This document shows, one piece after another, positions 10,369 to 23,472 of a DNA stretch of 24,055 nt. The notes below the pieces were generated by a model. It saw nothing but the letters and a program-made list of their open reading frames with translations. It was not told where the DNA came from and ran no database searches. The translations under genes and the position numbers were made by a program. The stretch spans positions 1-24,055 of the IMG/VR virus record IMGVR_UViG_3300046006_002273; one strand, given 5' to 3'. The DNA is from a virus. How positions within the stretch are numbered: the stretch's first letter is position 1; every line of letters begins with the position of its first letter.

Positions 10369-11439
10369 CTATTCAATCCATCCCCGTGCAATCGTAACCA
10401 CTGTTCCATTCGCGGTCGGCACTGCGGTAAATTTGAGTGTCACGCCGGCCGGCAGCCTAATTGGGATATCGAACTTCACCAAGTTGAAAGCGTTCGGGCT
10501 GCTCACTTCCGCGATGGCTTGAAACAGATTCGTTGCGAAGCCGTCATTTTGCGTCGTTCGCAGGATGATCCTGGCGCTTTGCACTTGATTCGCGGTTGTC
10601 GCGTAGCCGCATGAAATCTGCGTGAGGTAGAGCGTCTTGCCAGCCGGCACGGTGTAGACAGTGTTCCTTGCCCTGGTGTACCCGGCCGTAATGTAGGTGT
10701 AGACCGGGGCGGAACCGTCCGCGTCCCATAGCTGGATCGCAGCCGCCGCAACCCCGCCCGTCCCTGCCGAGATGACTCGCATCGAGTTGACGCGAAAAAC
10801 GTCCGTGTTGATTAAATCAACCCCGGTCGCGTTTCCACCGAGCAAGACGATCTCTGACTTCTGAGCGAACGCGGTCGTCAAGTAACTGATTTTGACCGCG
10901 TGCGCTCCCGTGTAAGCCGCCACGCTGACGACGTGGTAGCCCCTGGATGCCGCTGTCCCGCCGCTGCTGAATCCGCCAGCAATCGTGAGTGTAGTGGTGG
11001 CTACCGCGGTAACGAATCCGTACTCGGGCGTCGTGCCTGATTTGTCGAGAATCACCAGATCGCCAACTGCTACCGCCGTCGCGGCGAGGAAGTCCTCGGA
11101 CGCATCGACGAGGCTGGTTGTCGTGCCCCCGGCGTCGGCGGTCAGTGGGCCGCGGATTGCCGATGCTCGGTCCTGTGCGTGCGCGGTGTATACCTCCATC
11201 GCTGTGCCAGTGGTCGGCAGCGTAATCGTCGCGTCGGTGTACGACCAAACATCCTTTGCCGTCGTTCCGGTCAGCGTCGAGAATCCGATCTTCTCAAACA
11301 CGGAATGCCCGGTAACGCCACCCTCGGCGATTTGCTCCAGGTACGTCTGAGAGACGACGCGCGGATTGCCATCGACGTTTTTCCATCCGCGGGCAACGCC
11401 TGTTGAATCCAGCCAGCCGGTATATTTGAAGTAGCTCAT
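10369..11439 (-). CDS. Tail or fibre-associated structural protein
   Basis: The protein has 356 residues from ATG 11439, which overlaps the fibre stop as ATGA and has GGGGGA upstream. Recognisable parts are DGNPRVVSQTYLEQIAEG near the N-terminus, then a domain with SLVDASEDFLAATAVAVGDLV and YGFVTAVATTTLTIAGGFSSGGT (about residues 110-165). The latter is a small beta module often seen in phage structural proteins, where 'D...F....V..GD.V...' precedes a 'V..V.....LT..' strand. The C-terminal part is beta-rich (AGKTLYLTQISCGYAT, FDIPIRLPAGVTLKFTAV), jelly-roll-like in appearance. It probably sits at the fibre base or on the tail tip; the detailed role is not established. Confidence 0.72.
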   Translation of the reverse strand: MSYFKYTGWLDSTGVARGWKNVDGNPRVVSQTYLEQIAEGGVTGHSVFEKIGFSTLTGTTAKDVWSYTDATITLPTTGTAMEVYTAHAQDRASAIRGPLTADAGGTTTSLVDASEDFLAATAVAVGDLVILDKSGTTPEYGFVTAVATTTLTIAGGFSSGGTAASRGYHVVSVAAYTGAHAVKISYLTTAFAQKSEIVLLGGNATGVDLINTDVFRVNSMRVISAGTGGVAAAAIQLWDADGSAPVYTYITAGYTRARNTVYTVPAGKTLYLTQISCGYATTANQVQSARIILRTTQNDGFATNLFQAIAEVSSPNAFNLVKFDIPIRLPAGVTLKFTAVPTANGTVVTIARGWIE

Positions 11440-13208
11440 GTTATCCCCCATGCTCCCGTCGCGTAGCAGCGGAGCGTAATGGCTTCCCACTGGTTGAGTG
11501 TTTGGTTCGCAACGCCGTCAATCGTCTCGGTGCCAAATCCCTCGATCGTCACCACACCGGCCCCGATGTTTTTGATGTGCTTCGTGTCGCCCACGGTCGC
11601 GGTATTCATGGTGAGAGTGAACGCCGTACCTTTGGAACAGATAATCACCTCGTCCGCCAAGGTTGCGTCGGCTGTGTCAACAACGGTGCGGATGGTTGCC
11701 TTGCGTCCGGCGGTCGTTGTTTTCCCATCGACTACCAAATCGCCTGCGACGCTCAGATACCCGCTGCCCACGACTTTCGGATTGATGACGAGGTTCGTGC
11801 CGTCATAGGTGATCGTCGCGTCATTGCCGGTCCCGAGATAGAGCAGGCTGTTGTCGTTGCCGAGTCGCCAGTTGCCCGACACCGAGTAAATCTGCCAGTT
11901 GGTTGTGCCCTTCGCGAGCGTCGGGACATAGAGCCCGATCTGCGTCCCGAGCGTTCCGGCTCCAGCTACTTCCGTGACCGAGAAGTGCCGCAGTTCGGTC
12001 ATCGTCGAGGACGCACCGATGTTTCCGTATGACGAATACGCCTCCCCGAGCGTTACCGTTCCCGTCGATGCGTCTTGTGCGATGTAGGACCGCATTCCAC
12101 GCATTATTCCGGTTGCATTTGCCGATGACTGCTGCGCGGTCGAACTCATGGCGTTTATGATTAGTACAGATCCGGTACCGGAGGCTGTTGACCGCGCCGT
12201 TCCGTCGATTCCGTAAACGGTGTCCAACACGCCAGATGAATGATTCACCAGCGAGGTAAACGTTAGCGCCGAGCAACCCGTGTACGTGGAGGTAGATGCC
12301 ACCATGTACCCTCGCACCGCCGCTTGACCAGCCGCCCCCGATAACCGATATGCGTAGAATCCATAGGACGCTGACGGTGTAATTCCAGCAGAACTACCGC
12401 CTGCGAGTTCGACGGCTTTTCCGAACGTGACCTGTGTCCCACTCGGCGTCACCGTCAGGTTGCCGGTGGCTCCGGTGGCGAACGTAGTCTGATTCGTCCC
12501 GTTGTCGTAGCCAAGGATGAATTGCGGGCTAGTGACGCTGACGGCGTGCAGACGGGCGGATACCGTGGCCCCGGTGCCGATGCCGAAATTGCCAGCGGTA
12601 AATCGGGCGTGCTCAGACGCACCATCGAATATGATCGTTCCTTCAGAATTGAATATCAATGGAGCTGTAGCACCAGCAATATGAGTAAACCGAAATGTTC
12701 CAGCAGGATACGTTCCAGAATATGACTGCCCATAAAACAGAAAATATGTATTCGCGGCTCCGTTGTTCCACTGCATCCCCATTCGTGCAGCGGCTCCCGT
12801 TGAATAGTTGTACATACGCAACGAATAAGCATCAGTATTCGTTGTTGAAAAACATCGAATATGCGACGTTTGAGACGTTCCATTCTCGCCGATATCTATC
12901 TGCTTGCCTGCGGGCACTGATATGATTGTCCCACTCGGCGTCACCGTCAGGTTGCCGGTGGCTCCGGTGGCGAACGTGGTCTGGTTCGTCCCCGCGTTGA
13001 CAAGCGTGAGTTGCGTGCCGGCAACCGTCACCGTCAGCGGCACGCTCACGCCAACCGCAGCGGTCGTGAGTGTCAAGCCCTTAATAGTCAGCGTGTCCGT
13101 GCCTACGACATAGGACGTTCCCGAGACGCCGTAATGCACGCCGGTCAGTGCGCGAACTTGGATCTCGGTTGCGGTGCCACCGGGCGGGTAGCGGTAACTG
13201 ATCGGCAT
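11436..13208 (-). CDS. Tail fibre protein
   Basis: This 590-residue protein starts at ATG 13208 with GGAGAATAGAGA upstream. It is poor in charged residues and rich in Thr, Gly, Ala and Ser throughout. A segment TNQTTFATGATGNLTVTPSG occurs twice, at about residues 74-93 and 238-257. The central part contains beta-helix-like pieces (FRFTHIAGATAPLIFNSEG, ARFTAGNFGIGTGATVSARL). The C-terminus shows the end module common in phage fibres: DGKTTTAGRKATIRTVV, a TLTMNTATVGDTKHIKN strand pair, then GTETIDGVANQTLNQWEAITL and a final CYATGAWGIT. Fibres bind host surface receptors. The stretch from about 12640 to 12900 is visibly richer in A and T than its surroundings. Confidence 0.85.
   Translation of the reverse strand: MPISYRYPPGGTATEIQVRALTGVHYGVSGTSYVVGTDTLTIKGLTLTTAAVGVSVPLTVTVAGTQLTLVNAGTNQTTFATGATGNLTVTPSGTIISVPAGKQIDIGENGTSQTSHIRCFSTTNTDAYSLRMYNYSTGAAARMGMQWNNGAANTYFLFYGQSYSGTYPAGTFRFTHIAGATAPLIFNSEGTIIFDGASEHARFTAGNFGIGTGATVSARLHAVSVTSPQFILGYDNGTNQTTFATGATGNLTVTPSGTQVTFGKAVELAGGSSAGITPSASYGFYAYRLSGAAGQAAVRGYMVASTSTYTGCSALTFTSLVNHSSGVLDTVYGIDGTARSTASGTGSVLIINAMSSTAQQSSANATGIMRGMRSYIAQDASTGTVTLGEAYSSYGNIGASSTMTELRHFSVTEVAGAGTLGTQIGLYVPTLAKGTTNWQIYSVSGNWRLGNDNSLLYLGTGNDATITYDGTNLVINPKVVGSGYLSVAGDLVVDGKTTTAGRKATIRTVVDTADATLADEVIICSKGTAFTLTMNTATVGDTKHIKNIGAGVVTIEGFGTETIDGVANQTLNQWEAITLRCYATGAWGIT
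12435..12500. repeat. Direct repeat within the tail fibre gene, copy A
   Basis: This 66-base segment is 97% identical by my reading (two differences) to the one at 12927-12992. Both differences fall at third codon positions and keep the amino acids Asn and Thr. The copies are 492 bases apart, exactly 164 codons, so recombination between them would stay in frame. Confidence 0.9.
12927..12992. repeat. Direct repeat within the tail fibre gene, copy B
   Basis: This is the partner of 12435-12500 and encodes the N-terminal copy of the repeated fibre segment. The AT-richer fibre domain lies between the two copies. Confidence 0.9.
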
Positions 13209-15669: not shown

Positions 15670-15698
15670 GTGCCGCCTATCGAGCCTCGTGATCTTAG

Positions 15699-15771
15699 CC
15701 GGGACTACGCGACTCGAACGCGTGCCTTGACGACTTCTCGCCATGCTCTGCTCCACCTAAGCTAAGTCCCG
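15699..15771 (-). tRNA. tRNA-like element with defective anticodon arm
   Basis: On the minus strand 73 bases fold largely as a tRNA. The acceptor stem CGGGACT/AGTCCCG is perfect over 7 bp. T8 and A9 follow, then a D-stem GCTT/GAGC with a 10-base loop containing GG. The T-arm is ACGCG-TTCGAGT-CGCGT, perfect and with the canonical TTCGA loop. The anticodon region is short: TGGCG and CGTCA pair (one G-T) around a 6-base loop AGAAGT, which lacks T33 and one base. CCA is not encoded; base 73 is G. An isotype cannot be given. Either it is a decayed tRNA, an attachment-site remnant, or an unusual tRNA-like RNA. Confidence 0.5.
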
Positions 15772-18183: not shown

Positions 18184-18555
18184 TCAACATGAGCCGCGAA
18201 TTTCCGCGGGCCCCCGGCGAACGGCCGGAGTTGCACCGGCTGCCGGACAGGATTCCCCTGCGCTCACCGTGGGGGCTCCCGCGGATCTCCAGATATTCTC
18301 CCCGCAATCCGGACACGTCAACAGGTCAAGAACCGGATATCCACATCGCGGACATCGGCCGCCAAGTTCGCGCCGCAGTTCGGTCATCACCTGTTCATGG
18401 TCGGCGAGCGCGGCCCCGGCTTCGTGCCGGCGCTCGATGGCGACTCGCGCGTCCAGCTCCGCCGGCGTGATTCGCTCGGTTCCGCCGGACATGATCTGCT
18501 TCAGCCGGTAGCATGACCAGGCGTCGATGGAATGCTCGTAGCGTCGCCCTCTCAT
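18184..18555 (-). CDS. Zinc-ribbon protein (123 residues)
   Basis: ATG 18555 overlaps the upstream stop (ATGA). After basic and acidic helices (LDARVAIERRHEAG, EQVMTELRRELGG), two CxxC knuckles appear: CPRC (about residues 68-71) and CPDC (about 81-84), forming a zinc ribbon CPRCGYPVLDLLTCPDCGE. A Pro/Ala/Gly-rich tail follows. Zinc ribbons of this size commonly bind nucleic acid or act as adaptors. A gap of 93 bases follows before the exported protein gene and holds no clear element. Confidence 0.7.
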   Translation of the reverse strand: MRGRRYEHSIDAWSCYRLKQIMSGGTERITPAELDARVAIERRHEAGAALADHEQVMTELRRELGGRCPRCGYPVLDLLTCPDCGENIWRSAGAPTVSAGESCPAAGATPAVRRGPAEIRGSC

Positions 18556-19121
18556 GGCGTCCTCGCTTTCTCGGCGGCTTCGCGGGTGGAGTAGTAGCCA
18601 CTGCAGATGGCGTCAAATGATCCATTTGGGCCGTACACGCATGACAGCTTTCCGAGCCTGGTGTTTACGCCGGTAACTTCCCACGATTTCACGCCGATCG
18701 AATCCCAGATTGTGATCCCAGGCGTGATCGGCACACCGTCCGCCGTCTTTGGCAGCCGGTCCACGATCGCCTGTAGCCGCTCGATCTCCGCTTTCGCTTC
18801 CTTAGCCATCTGCCAACGCTGATCGCGGACATCCTCAGCGTCTCGCAATTTGTCTTGCAGCCGCTCGTTCTCCGCCCGCAGCCTGCTGCACTCGCTGATC
18901 GCGTTGACGGCGGCGGCTTGTACGGTGTCGAGGGAAGCCTGTAGTCGCACGTTTTCTCCCTGCCTCTGGTCTCGCTGCTCTCCTAGGATGACCGCGGTTT
19001 TTTGCCACGAATCCACGTCGGCCTGTAGCCGCTCGATTTCGTCAGCCGCGGATCGCAGTTCAATGTTCCAGTCTCGGCAACATCTCGCAATGTCTCGCAA
19101 CTGTTTTGCTGCCTCGCTCAT
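18552..19121 (-). CDS. Coiled-coil protein with C-terminal folded domain
   Basis: ATG 19121 overlaps the previous stop (ATGA) and has GGGAGGGAG about 7 bases upstream, so it is preferred to an earlier ATG at 19136. The first 125 of 189 residues form long heptad coiled coils (IERLQADVDSWQ, RLRAENERLQDKLRDAEDV, AEIERLQAIVDRL). The rest is a small beta-rich domain (DGVPITPGITIWD, VTGVNTRLGKLSCVYGP, GYYSTREAAEKA). Similar coiled-coil plus small C-terminal domain proteins occur in phage early regions, with unknown function. Confidence 0.75.
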   Translation of the reverse strand: MSEAAKQLRDIARCCRDWNIELRSAADEIERLQADVDSWQKTAVILGEQRDQRQGENVRLQASLDTVQAAAVNAISECSRLRAENERLQDKLRDAEDVRDQRWQMAKEAKAEIERLQAIVDRLPKTADGVPITPGITIWDSIGVKSWEVTGVNTRLGKLSCVYGPNGSFDAICSGYYSTREAAEKARTP

Positions 19122-19339
19122 GATCTCCCTCCCCATTTCGCCACCCGCTCGCAAATCTCATCGGCAACGTTTTCACGCTCGCCAGTCGGCCGATCGCGCA
19201 TCAGCCGCATGGCCTCATCACCGTCGCACGGGCCGTCGGCGGGAACGGTTTGGTCCGGCTCGACTTCCGCACGGCTGACGCGGGGCTTTCGCGACGCTCG
19301 GGAGTGCCGGAATTTACCCAATGGCTTCTGGTACACCAT
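19118..19339 (-). CDS. Small polar protein, unknown (73 residues)
   Basis: ATG 19339 has GGAGGAAGGA immediately upstream and overlaps the end of the csrA-like gene by 26 bases. The N-terminal half is basic (MVYQKPLGKFRHSRASRKP), the C-terminal half acidic with a helix (ENVADEICERVAKWGG). No family is recognised. Its ribosome site contains repeated GGA, the core of CsrA binding sites, and therefore is a possible target of the gene just upstream. Confidence 0.65.
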   Translation of the reverse strand: MVYQKPLGKFRHSRASRKPRVSRAEVEPDQTVPADGPCDGDEAMRLMRDRPTGERENVADEICERVAKWGGRS

Positions 19340-19520
19340 GTCCTTCCTCCCGCTCCGCAATCTCGCTCCGCAGCACCGTCACCGCGCGGTCAGCCAGTAT
19401 TCGCAACCGCACCCGGCCGCCGCCCAGCCGGTCCACCACGATTCGCGCCGGCCCGTCGACCTCGATCGACTGGCCACGTTTGCGAGTCAGGACCAACCCG
19501 CCTTTTTCTTTCGTCTGCAT
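19314..19520 (-). CDS. csrA: CsrA/RsmA-family translational regulator
   Basis: This 68-residue protein starts at ATG 19520 with GGAAGGA upstream. It matches CsrA from end to end of the core: LVLTRKRGQSIEVDG corresponds to the first strand with its key LTRK residues, followed by a strand pair around GGGRVRLRI, and ADRAVTVLRSEIAERE carries the conserved 'V.V.R.EI' with the RNA-contacting Arg. CsrA dimers bind GGA motifs in mRNA leaders and block or stabilise translation. In the phage it could control phage or host genes. A GC-rich hairpin lies just upstream (19541-19559), and the ribosome site itself contains GGA twice, which would permit autoregulation. Confidence 0.88.
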   Translation of the reverse strand: MQTKEKGGLVLTRKRGQSIEVDGPARIVVDRLGGGRVRLRILADRAVTVLRSEIAEREEGHGVPEAIG

Positions 19521-19540
19521 GGGATTCCTTCCGCAATGCC

Positions 19541-19559
19541 GGCGGGGAAAGCCCCCGCC
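19541..19559 (-). promoter_or_regulatory. Hairpin in the csrA-like gene leader
   Basis: GGCGGGG and CCCCGCC pair perfectly over 7 bp around a 5-base loop. The hairpin ends about 10 bases before the GGAAGGA ribosome site. There is no U-tract, so a role in translation control or CsrA binding context is more plausible than termination. Function is inferred. Confidence 0.5.
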
Positions 19560-19577
19560 GTGGTTTCGTTTCCCGCC

Positions 19578-20267
19578 TCACGCCTGAACGAATTCAGGAT
19601 GGTCCTTCCAGAAGTCGGCCAGCTTGTCCGCCAGCCCGGCCGCTTTCTCCTCCCCGATGCCCTTGAGCCCATCGTTCCACCCGAGCCCGCTGGCCATCCG
19701 CTCGACCAGGGCCCCCAGCGTCTCGCAACCGGCGCCGGCCAGCGTGTCGGCAATCTTCCCCGTGATGCCGGCCTCGCTCAGCGGCAACTCCCGCCAGGCC
19801 CCCGCGACTCCGGCCTGCAAGCCGGCCCAGAACTCGGACCATGCCTCGGGACCGTCGACGCCTGCCGTCCGGGCGTCGGCAATCGCGGTCTGTACGTCCG
19901 GCTCGGCCAGGTACTCACCGTCGGCCAGCGGGACAGTGCCCGCGTCGATCTGGACCACGATCCCTCCCGCCCGGATCTCGACCACAGGCCAGCTTGTGCC
20001 GATCTCGAGCCCGTGTTGATCCGTCCCGCTCACGATTTCGACCACGGGCAGGCTGACCGCCGGCGCCGCGTCGAACAGCGGCAGGGGCCGCGTCTCGGAA
20101 TCAATCACGGTGGTCAGGTGTTCGACCGCCGCTTCCCACGAGGACTTGGCCGCCTTCGCGTTCTCTTTCGCGATCAGGTGCCGGCTCTCCGCCTCCCGCA
20201 GTTTCTCGCGGGCATCGCCAATTCGTGCCAATGCGTCCGCGTCCGCTGTTTCCAGTTTCTTCGCCAT
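19578..20267 (-). CDS. Coiled-coil protein with helix-hairpin-helix C-terminus
   Basis: ATG 20267 has GGAGG 8 bases upstream, so the longer reading from 20288 is rejected; the protein has 229 residues. Residues 5-58 form a charged helix/coiled coil (DALARIGDAREKLREAESRH). A beta-rich middle follows (PVVEIVSGTDQHG, PVVEIRAGGIVVQID). At residues about 165-218 lie two HhH-like units (AGITGKIADTLAGAGCETLGAL and DGLKGIGEEKAAGLADKL), found in DNA-binding repair and replication proteins. The short motif PLPLFD (about 61-66) resembles sliding-clamp binding peptides but has no Gln. A DNA-processing accessory role is likely. Confidence 0.72.
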   Translation of the reverse strand: MAKKLETADADALARIGDAREKLREAESRHLIAKENAKAAKSSWEAAVEHLTTVIDSETRPLPLFDAAPAVSLPVVEIVSGTDQHGLEIGTSWPVVEIRAGGIVVQIDAGTVPLADGEYLAEPDVQTAIADARTAGVDGPEAWSEFWAGLQAGVAGAWRELPLSEAGITGKIADTLAGAGCETLGALVERMASGLGWNDGLKGIGEEKAAGLADKLADFWKDHPEFVQA

Positions 20268-20271
20268 TGTC

Positions 20272-20778
20272 CTACCTCCGTAAACCACTCGTTGCCAATG
20301 CCAGCCGGACCAACCGGCCAGCCTCTCCAGAACTCATCTGCTGCGGGGTCACCCGTAGCACCCGCCAACCGGCCAGGGAAGCCAGGTTGTATTTTTCCAT
20401 GTCCGTCTTGATCCGCTCGATGCTGCTGTGTCCGGCAACTGCCCGGCGTCCGCACGTCGGGCAGCGTTTGCCGCGCCCAAACAGCCCCCCTTCGATTTCC
20501 AGGGCCACCAGGCGCGCCGGCCAGGCCCAGTCAAAGCAGAATTTCCGCTGCCGGTGGAACCGGAACTCGGCGACGGCTCCCTCGGGGAGCCCGTTTGCGG
20601 CCCCGCTGTGCCCCGCTGGCGCGTCCGCGGGGGTCTTGTCGGCTGGAATCACCGTGGCAGCCGGCGTCACGGCAGCGTGGAACTGGGACTTGCGGCGCAA
20701 CTCCTCGTCCGTCACCGGCCCATAGTCGCCCGGCAAGCGCGCCGTCCGTCCTGTTACGAGGATATCGCGAATGCTCAC
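20272..20778 (-). CDS. PD-(D/E)XK nuclease, Vsr/DUF559-like
   Basis: The protein has 168 residues and starts at ATG 20778 in ATGA overlap with the gene before. The nuclease core is FDWAWPARLVALEIEGG with Asp83, Glu94 and Glu96, then KTDMEKYNLASLAGWRVLRVTP (about residues 124-145), the ending typical of DUF559/Vsr-like and phage Holliday-resolvase-like enzymes. Between them is a zinc-knuckle-like CPTCGRRAVAGH (about 106-117). The last part carries the 'E.Y.....GWRVLR.T' pattern. It likely cuts branched or mismatched DNA during replication or packaging. The N-terminal 70 residues are low-complexity, apparently disordered. Confidence 0.75.
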   Translation of the reverse strand: MSIRDILVTGRTARLPGDYGPVTDEELRRKSQFHAAVTPAATVIPADKTPADAPAGHSGAANGLPEGAVAEFRFHRQRKFCFDWAWPARLVALEIEGGLFGRGKRCPTCGRRAVAGHSSIERIKTDMEKYNLASLAGWRVLRVTPQQMSSGEAGRLVRLALATSGLRR

Positions 20779-21474: not shown

Positions 21475-23472
21475 TCACAGCGAACACCTCATCCGTTTGA
21501 CGATGGTCCTGGTCCGCTTCTCAGTGCGCTCCTCAACGCTCTTGACTGCCCCGCTGGCCTCCAGGTCGGCAATGATCTCCTGCCGCTCTTTCCGTTTGAG
21601 CCACTGGGTACGGCGGGTCAGTTCGTTCTGGGTACATCCGTCTCGAATCGCGCAGAACACCCGCTTCAGGTCCGATTCGTACTTGCTGCCTGCAACGGTG
21701 TTCCTTGCGGCTTGCAGAACCAGCCGGGTCGAGTAGTTGGCCAGCCGGATTCCCCAGTTCTCCGCCTCGATTGTGATCCGCGGGGCCATGTCGGTGGCTT
21801 GGCAGCATGCATAGATCAGGGCCAGCTTGGCGGCCTTCTCCGGGGCTCGGCTCCAGACGGCGGAATGGATCTCGCTCTCCGCCTGGTGCTTGTCGTTGAC
21901 CAGATCACAGTAGGACTCGTGGCGGGCGTCGGCCTCCGGCGTCTTCTCTGCCAGAATCGGGGCCGGCCCCCCGAGGTTCCCTGATCCCGGCGGCTTCCAC
22001 TCGGACCACATCCGAAGGCGTTCCAAGACCGTCTTCGGGATCTTGGCCTTGAGCGGCTTCCGTCGCTTCGGGCAGCGCACGTCCGTTTGAAAGATCAGCA
22101 GCCGGCCCACAAGCCCGTCGGTCAGGTTCTCCGGGCTCAGGCCGGAGTAGAGGTTCTCCGCCACGCTCGTTCCGTAGACGCAAACGTGGGGCTGATTGAT
22201 CCGCTTGACCTTCGACGCGTCGGCGTACGCGTCCCCGGTCCAGATTGTGTTGGAGGACGAGTACAGGGCCATGAGGACCGTTCCCACGTTGTACAGGTGG
22301 GACACCTTCGGGTCGCGCATGGTCGCCAGTAGCCGGCCGATCTCGTCAAGCTGGAACAGGCGGATCGGGTGTTGACTCACGGCGGAGATGATCCCCGCAT
22401 GGCTGCCGATCCGCTCCGGCCCGTTGACCAGCTCCAGGCCGGATTCAAGCAGGAACCGCTTGTTGACTTGCCGGGGGTATTCCTTGCCGCTTCCGCTCGG
22501 TGCCAATCCGAGGACCATCACGTTCGTCCTGGTGTCGTAGTCATCGCAGACCTTCTGGCCGAATGCGGCCCCGAACAGGGCGATCAGCGCGGCCAGCGAC
22601 AACTCCGGCTGGGGCTTGATCGACGTGTCCACCGCGTAGCGGAAGGCGTCCCGCATCGGCCCGGGGAGATCCTGCAAGCAGTCCTGGGGGAAGACTGCCT
22701 CCGACTCTTCCTCGACCGGTTCGTCATCGACGTTGTGCAGGTGGGAGAGAATCAGGCTTTCCTCAATGAAGTCCGGCTCGTACCGGGCGGCCGATCGGGC
22801 GATGTTCCGCAGTTCCTTGTCGCGGAGCGGCGGCTTGCAGCGGGAAGCGTTGACAGCGGCCAGCGCGTCGAAAATCTCGCCCTCGTTCATCCCGCCGCGG
22901 CGGAACAGGCCGGCGAACCGAATCATGGCGTGGTTGCGGTTCCCCTCGGGGATCTCCTCGCTGACGGATTCCCGGATCTTCGGCCGCTGGCCCCCGAGCA
23001 ACGCCACCAGCCAAGCAGGTACCGGGGGGAGAACCGCTTCCAGATCGATCACCCAGCGGTAAGGCTTTCCGTCGACCACGCTGGGCGGCACGAGGACGTA
23101 ACCGCCGTTGGCCCGGGTGTCCACGCCCTTGGCCAGATCGCCGGACGTGTTGCGGAATTCCTGCTCAGCGCGGAACCAGAAATGCACCCCGCCGCGCGGC
23201 GTGCTGGTCATCGTCGCCCGCATCAACTCCGCCGTGTCCACTTTCGTCAACCACGGCTTGCCGTCGGGGTCGATGTCCAGGACAAGCAGCCCATCGGTTG
23301 CGATGGCGACGTTGTAGTCGGGGTTCTCGGTCCACCATGCTTGAATCTTGTCCTCGTCCGTAGTCGCGTCCAAGCACCCGTGTTTCGTCGCCGGCGGCTT
23401 CCCGTTGGGGACGCACGGGAAAACGCGATAGCCAAGTTCGGCATATTGCAGGGCGGCATCCAGGCTGCGCAT
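21475..23472 (-). CDS. Primase-polymerase fused to an ATPase/helicase-like region
   Basis: The protein has 665 residues from ATG 23472; no clear ribosome site is seen. The N-terminal part is a PrimPol (AEP) domain: LGYRVFPC near residue 15, LVLDIDPDG with catalytic Asp66 and Asp68, GGVHFWF with His97, and KGVDTRANGGYVLVPPS (about 115-131). A primase C-terminal-like helical region follows at about 175-233 (GNRNHAMIRFAGLFRRGG ... LRNIARSAARYEP). The rest is ATPase/helicase-like (DUF3987-type): Walker A GLAPSGSGK (about 322-330) and Walker B FQLDEIG (about 373-379). It could prime and unwind at an origin. The repeat region lies immediately downstream. Confidence 0.88.
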   Translation of the reverse strand: MRSLDAALQYAELGYRVFPCVPNGKPPATKHGCLDATTDEDKIQAWWTENPDYNVAIATDGLLVLDIDPDGKPWLTKVDTAELMRATMTSTPRGGVHFWFRAEQEFRNTSGDLAKGVDTRANGGYVLVPPSVVDGKPYRWVIDLEAVLPPVPAWLVALLGGQRPKIRESVSEEIPEGNRNHAMIRFAGLFRRGGMNEGEIFDALAAVNASRCKPPLRDKELRNIARSAARYEPDFIEESLILSHLHNVDDEPVEEESEAVFPQDCLQDLPGPMRDAFRYAVDTSIKPQPELSLAALIALFGAAFGQKVCDDYDTRTNVMVLGLAPSGSGKEYPRQVNKRFLLESGLELVNGPERIGSHAGIISAVSQHPIRLFQLDEIGRLLATMRDPKVSHLYNVGTVLMALYSSSNTIWTGDAYADASKVKRINQPHVCVYGTSVAENLYSGLSPENLTDGLVGRLLIFQTDVRCPKRRKPLKAKIPKTVLERLRMWSEWKPPGSGNLGGPAPILAEKTPEADARHESYCDLVNDKHQAESEIHSAVWSRAPEKAAKLALIYACCQATDMAPRITIEAENWGIRLANYSTRLVLQAARNTVAGSKYESDLKRVFCAIRDGCTQNELTRRTQWLKRKERQEIIADLEASGAVKSVEERTEKRTRTIVKRMRCSL

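Follow-up and report, generated by a model that had tools for sequence, protein, structure and literature searches.

The stretch of DNA analysed here, the window, comprises 24,055 bases of a viral record and encodes on its minus strand a protein of 68 residues, MQTKEKGGLVLTRKRGQSIEVDGPARIVVDRLGGGRVRLRILADRAVTVLRSEIAEREEGHGVPEAIG, that belongs to the CsrA family of RNA-binding translational regulators (Table 1). The window maps at 99.9-100% onto the 51,444-base contig G001 (IMGVR_UViG_3300044991_001427), wrapping round its ends, and the two are the same virus. The wrapped ends indicate a genome of about 51 kb that is circularly permuted or terminally redundant. All but two of its 66 predicted genes are encoded on the same strand. 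Besides the primase listed in Table 1, the replication-type genes include those for a ResIII helicase, a DNA methylase and an AAA_24 ATPase, whereas large terminase, major head protein and head decoration protein represent packaging and structure; csrA is located between the replication block and a lysis/structural block. The earlier note had assigned csrA to an early operon. Given this position and the shared strand of nearly all genes, the assignment is a fair guess but no more.

Table 1. Features in and around the csrA region of the window
Feature	Position	Strand	Basis
Zinc-ribbon-like protein	18184..18555	-	tblastn match to the L010 gene
Next gene, 73 aa, no family match	19118..19339	-	ORF list, Pfam
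CsrA-family protein, 68 aa	19314..19520	-	Pfam, fold match, alignment
GGAGGAAGGA, Shine-Dalgarno sequence of the next gene, within the csrA reading frame	19341..19350	-	Sequence, folds
Small hairpin GCAUUGCGGAAGGAAUCCCAUGC, candidate autoregulatory CsrA site	19517..19539	-	Sampled folds
GC-rich hairpin CGGCGGGG-GCTTT-CCCCGCCG, upstream of csrA	19540..19560	-	Folding
Gene upstream of csrA, 236 aa (229 aa if read from the ATG with a Shine-Dalgarno sequence at 20267)	19578..20288	-	DUF3701 similarity, below that family's cut-off
Prim-Pol/PriCT-1 primase, replication block upstream of csrA	21475..23472	-	Pfam Prim-Pol 1e-37

The CsrA-family assignment is well beyond chance and the reading frame is a real gene. 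The protein scores above the gathering threshold of Pfam PF02599 (CsrA; E = 4e-11, 43.1 bits versus a cut-off of 27), with residues 9-57 aligned to positions 2-50 of the 53-position profile, and its match in the PDB is RsmE of Pseudomonas. AlphaFold, to which 77 sequences from the window and other loci were submitted, modelled it as a single chain with a mean pLDDT of 76. When this model was compared with the PDB using Foldseek, the top 15 matches were all CsrA, RsmA or RsmE chains (E from 4.7e-4), most of the best of them with a TM-score by target of about 0.8; the predicted model thus has the CsrA fold. Residues L11, R13 and R51, which correspond to L4, R6 and R44 of E. coli CsrA, are invariant in the 77 aligned sequences, including the window protein, and of these L4 and R44 are critical for RNA contact in CsrA (PMC7652899). 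The earlier note had claimed a complete CsrA core carried by a phage, had proposed a structural model and an alignment as checks, and had named loss of the RNA-contacting arginines among the results that would speak against it. With the fold predicted, the leucine present and both arginines retained, the claim of a phage-borne CsrA-family protein holds.

The protein is nevertheless far from a typical CsrA. It reaches 30.4 bits with NCBIfam NF002469 and 28.8 bits with TIGR00202, compared with CsrA equivalog cut-offs of 73 and 70.1, respectively, a shortfall of more than 40 bits in each case, and it is therefore filed as a member of the CsrA family rather than as a CsrA equivalog. It resembles the characterized CsrA, RsmA and RsmE proteins (PF02599; 2jpp, 1vpz, 2bti, 5z38) in fold, in core length and in the equivalents of L4, R6, V40, V42, R44, E46 and I47, but shares only about 28-39% identity with the E. 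coli, B. subtilis and RsmE proteins. It differs from them by an 8-residue N-terminal stretch, MQTKEKGG, which precedes the first family strand, LVLTRK, by a divergent GPA loop and by the replacements G33 to R40, P37 to D44 and H43 to L50. As G33 is nearly invariant in the family, its replacement may signify an altered function.

The N-terminal extension occurs in only two of the 77 aligned sequences, that of the window and that of a viral locus from IMG/VR (L010), in which the extension is basic. The two proteins are 66% identical over the core and share the sequence GGLVLTRKRGQ(S/T)I.V.GPA. An alternative TTG start at L9, which would yield a nearly canonical N-terminus, was set aside in favour of the ATG because the Shine-Dalgarno sequence is located there and because the L010 protein can be read solely with the extension. 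A scan with the pair recovered no further members; for the genome scan alignment A3 was used, A2 being too diverse. In a tree that was built from few columns and contains many unresolved forks, the two sequences form a pair (support 100/97) on a long branch, within a group that is largely viral and only loosely supported. The tree gives no sign of a recent capture of csrA from a host, as the window sequence pairs with L010 alone on that long branch. Within the 5.3-kb L010 locus, csrA and a downstream zinc-ribbon gene are the only genes that match the window (tblastn 35% over 54 aa for the zinc-ribbon gene), which suggests that csrA has been retained while the remainder of the locus no longer matches.

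CsrA-family proteins on mobile elements have been described before. They were found in 30 of 2,517 phages (PMC7366521), in a survey of GenBank and IMG/VR from which the hypothesis of an anti-CRISPR function at the level of expression arose (PMC8450108), and in a Vibrio phage (PMC12038007). The plasmid-encoded RsmQ of Pseudomonas fluorescens acts as a global regulator of its host, which shows that control of the host can pass to a protein of this kind (PMC9928087). With E. coli CsrA as query, csrA was recognizable in 85 of 50,697 phage records; together with the two catalogues (PMC7366521, PMC8450108) this number indicates that the word "rare", which the earlier note applied to phage examples with adjacent targets, is overstated. 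Viral csrA and the idea that it serves to hijack host regulation are already documented, and the present protein is a divergent addition. A tblastn search of the INPHARED phages with the window CsrA gave no match. The phage homologues listed previously (PMC7366521, Table 3; PMC8450108), e.g. that of Pseudomonas phage F116, have in common with the window protein that they are encoded by tailed phages. However, those of the latter survey are described as highly similar to bacterial proteins, whereas the window protein lies on a long branch with a single relative and no recent host donor is seen for it. RsmQ is likewise a CsrA homologue on a mobile element, but it resides on a plasmid and its function has been demonstrated; the window CsrA is known from its sequence and a model. 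Core matches (E approximately 1e-6) were also obtained with PHROG 9500, annotated as a CsrA-like regulator, and with PHROGs 5527 and 31572, but these matches are weak and the subgroup differs from that of the window protein.

The host of the phage is probably a member of the Planctomycetota. Relatives of its large terminase with 52-55% identity (E to 2e-72) are found in this phylum, compared with no more than 38% identity (best E 4.5e-24) in Pseudomonadota, and the first three matches of the CsrA query among bacterial genomes are Planctomycetota MAGs; both results make a planctomycete host likely. The comparison with G001 also disclosed two 66-base cross-matches of 97% (window 12435-12500 and 12927-12992) within a large open reading frame (11436-13208), which suggests that the encoded protein, a likely tail protein, contains an internal repeat. 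G001 contains a segment of 741 bases (38430-39170) devoid of predicted genes. The single tRNA-like gene called by ARAGORN (window 15698-15771, minus strand), with an unclear anticodon, is probably spurious.

The leader of csrA reads ...CGGCGGGGGCTTTCCCCGCCG GCATTGCGGAAGGAATCCC ATG. The two GGA motifs noted earlier at the ribosome site are present in GCGGAAGGAATCCCATG, although they amount to hardly more than what is usual for Shine-Dalgarno sequences in this phage, in which 18 of the 66 predicted genes carry at least two GGA within positions -25 to -1. The GC-rich hairpin upstream also exists, with a stem of 8 bp and a loop of 5 nucleotides, 19 nucleotides ahead of the csrA ATG; the regulatory role that the earlier note gave it does not stand. 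Its loop lacks GGA, the Shine-Dalgarno sequence lies outside of it, and it is one of nine similar hairpins found in the non-coding regions of the phage, 4.5 kb in total, where shuffled sequences lead to an expectation of 0.9, so that there is nothing particular to csrA about it. The whole csrA leader folds no better than its shuffled versions (z -0.69), and a csrA-specific control element at this position can be dismissed. The nine intergenic hairpins, all of them strong and GC-rich, with examples at G001 37415-37446 and 43226-43284, and most of which lack a T run, may be terminators or processing sites.

The start of the next gene overlaps the 3' end of csrA by 26 nucleotides, an arrangement that makes translational coupling of the two genes likely. 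According to the earlier note, the GGA repeats at the ribosome site of this gene mark it as a CsrA target. The motif is indeed there, just before the ATG, and with four GGA in positions -25 to -1 the gene has the most of all genes of the phage, all of them inside the csrA coding sequence; GGAGGAAGGA encodes part of the CsrA C-terminus. On closer inspection the target role is not supported. A target mRNA would be expected to display GGA in a loop at the ribosome site and to retain this feature with the gene, but the GGA of GGAGGAAGGA, which belongs to the gene's own Shine-Dalgarno sequence, is base-paired in the fold ensemble and occupies a hairpin loop in at most 1% of the sampled folds, and the gene is absent from L010, the sole close relative, where the zinc-ribbon gene follows csrA directly.

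A different structure at the csrA start itself deserves consideration. The small hairpin GCAUUGC-GGA(AGGAA)UCC-CAUGC presents the GGA of the Shine-Dalgarno sequence in its loop and holds the AUG in its stem, which corresponds to the preferred CsrA site, a GGA-containing loop on a short stem (PMC7652899). In 84% of the sampled structures the GGA is in the hairpin loop, the highest value among 65 genes, and L010 contains a comparable, weaker hairpin, CGAAA(GGGA)UUUCG, just before the csrA start. These features suggest a switch by which CsrA would repress its own translation through the Shine-Dalgarno hairpin and, owing to the overlapping start, would also lower that of the coupled next gene, for which autoregulation of E. 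coli csrA provides a precedent (PMC7652899). Several results weigh against it. The hairpin alone is weak (-4.7 kcal/mol), that of L010 drops to 12% in a longer sequence context, and in comparisons with shuffled sequences in which the Shine-Dalgarno sequence was kept fixed P was 0.058 for the window hairpin and 0.074 for the L010 hairpin (40+15 nt), rising to as much as 0.176 and 0.238, respectively, in other contexts. Because the idea arose after the folds had been seen, it was tried on new sets of leaders. Among the 62 csrA leaders of a second phage set, a few of which, including L185, repeat members of the first set, 6 had GGA in a loop, compared with 4 of 78 neighbouring genes (P = 0.34), and in Planctomycetota host csrA leaders the corresponding numbers were 4 of 28 and 4 of 22; neither set is enriched. 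A general rule of loop GGA in phage or planctomycete csrA leaders is thus unsupported by the second viral set and the host set. Autoregulation in the window phage is possible, but we regard it as doubtful. Certain other leaders stand out individually: ACGAA(AGGA)UUCGU at the Shine-Dalgarno sequence of the L012/L185 csrA (98% in the loop in L012) and CGACC(AAGGA)GGUCG at that of L060 (99%) are, as judged from the predicted folds, strong candidates for CsrA autoregulation.

Over the start sites of the whole phage, GGA was displayed in loops at a fraction of 0.08, compared with 0.12 in shuffled sequences. There is no excess, and the start-site folds give no evidence that phage genes in general are CsrA targets, which makes host mRNAs the more likely targets. 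A CsrB-like sponge RNA encoded by the phage was also looked for, but neither a cluster of GGA hairpins nor an Rfam match was found. The reading we favour, to which we assign a probability of about two-thirds, is that the window protein is a CsrA-family member that has diverged and is specific to phages, that it is carried by a tailed phage of about 51 kb, probably of Planctomycetota, and that it would exert translational control as a GGA-binding dimer. The protein would form the usual intertwined dimer and bind GGA in short hairpin loops or in Shine-Dalgarno sequences, and translation of chosen mRNAs would as a result be blocked or altered during infection. It would most likely act on mRNAs of the host that belong to a Csr network there, and perhaps also on its own message by way of the small start-site hairpin. 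Competition of the phage CsrA with host CsrA, as proposed earlier, is plausible.

The divergence of the protein allows other interpretations. The low family scores, the arginine in place of G33, the divergent GPA loop and the N-terminal extension could be those of a decaying or repurposed gene whose product keeps the CsrA fold but no longer binds GGA. We consider this very unlikely, since both the window protein and its relative with 66% identity retain the main contact residues, the reading frame has stayed open and the neighbourhood is partly conserved. Alternatively, the protein might act without targets of its own, as a dominant-negative or rewiring subunit that forms mixed dimers with host CsrA paralogues and thereby disturbs the host network. 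Each RNA-binding surface of CsrA is built from both subunits (PMC7652899), several Planctomycetota genomes contain from 5 to at least 16 csrA genes, and away from the contact residues the window protein has diverged strongly, all of which would suit such a subunit; the same divergence, together with the N-terminal extension, could equally hinder pairing, and the proposal appears unlikely. A function in counter-defence, in which the phage CsrA would reduce the translation of mRNAs for CRISPR-Cas or other defence systems of the host, draws on the repression of CRISPR-Cas by RsmA in Serratia and on the phage RsmA/CsrA homologues found in GenBank and IMG/VR (Campa et al., PMC8450108). That proposal stems from another host group, and the host of the present phage is narrowed down to a probable phylum, so we rate it as quite improbable here. 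The most far-reaching version of the GGA-binding reading, namely a CsrA lineage of planctomycete phages that carries its N-terminal extension beside the RNA-binding strand, is autoregulated through the start-site hairpin and drives a wedge into translation control by an unusually large set of host CsrA paralogues (from 5 to at least 16 per genome in part of the phylum), is a long shot.

In part of the probable host phylum csrA is strongly multiplied. The gene was found in 183 of 392 sampled Planctomycetota genomes, about half, and at least 40 of the 392, about one in ten, contain five or more copies, with a top count of at least 16; among 389 Pseudomonadota genomes one has five or more copies (both numbers counted from the listing). 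With so many host paralogues, a viral CsrA would enter a multi-paralogue network. In a Singulisphaera MAG (L085, contig DAIDJG010000420.1), csrA is located near genes for an ERF recombinase (E 1.3e-22) and a Cro/CI-type repressor; from its gene content the region looks like a prophage and would place a second csrA in the replication module of a planctomycete phage. Most documented viral CsrA proteins come from phages that infect Gammaproteobacteria, and there they are very similar to the CsrA of the host. The window protein, divergent and from a phage that probably infects planctomycetes, indicates how far the family can drift while its RNA contacts are kept, and in a host phylum with so many csrA genes the viral copy could act on a regulatory network that has been little studied.
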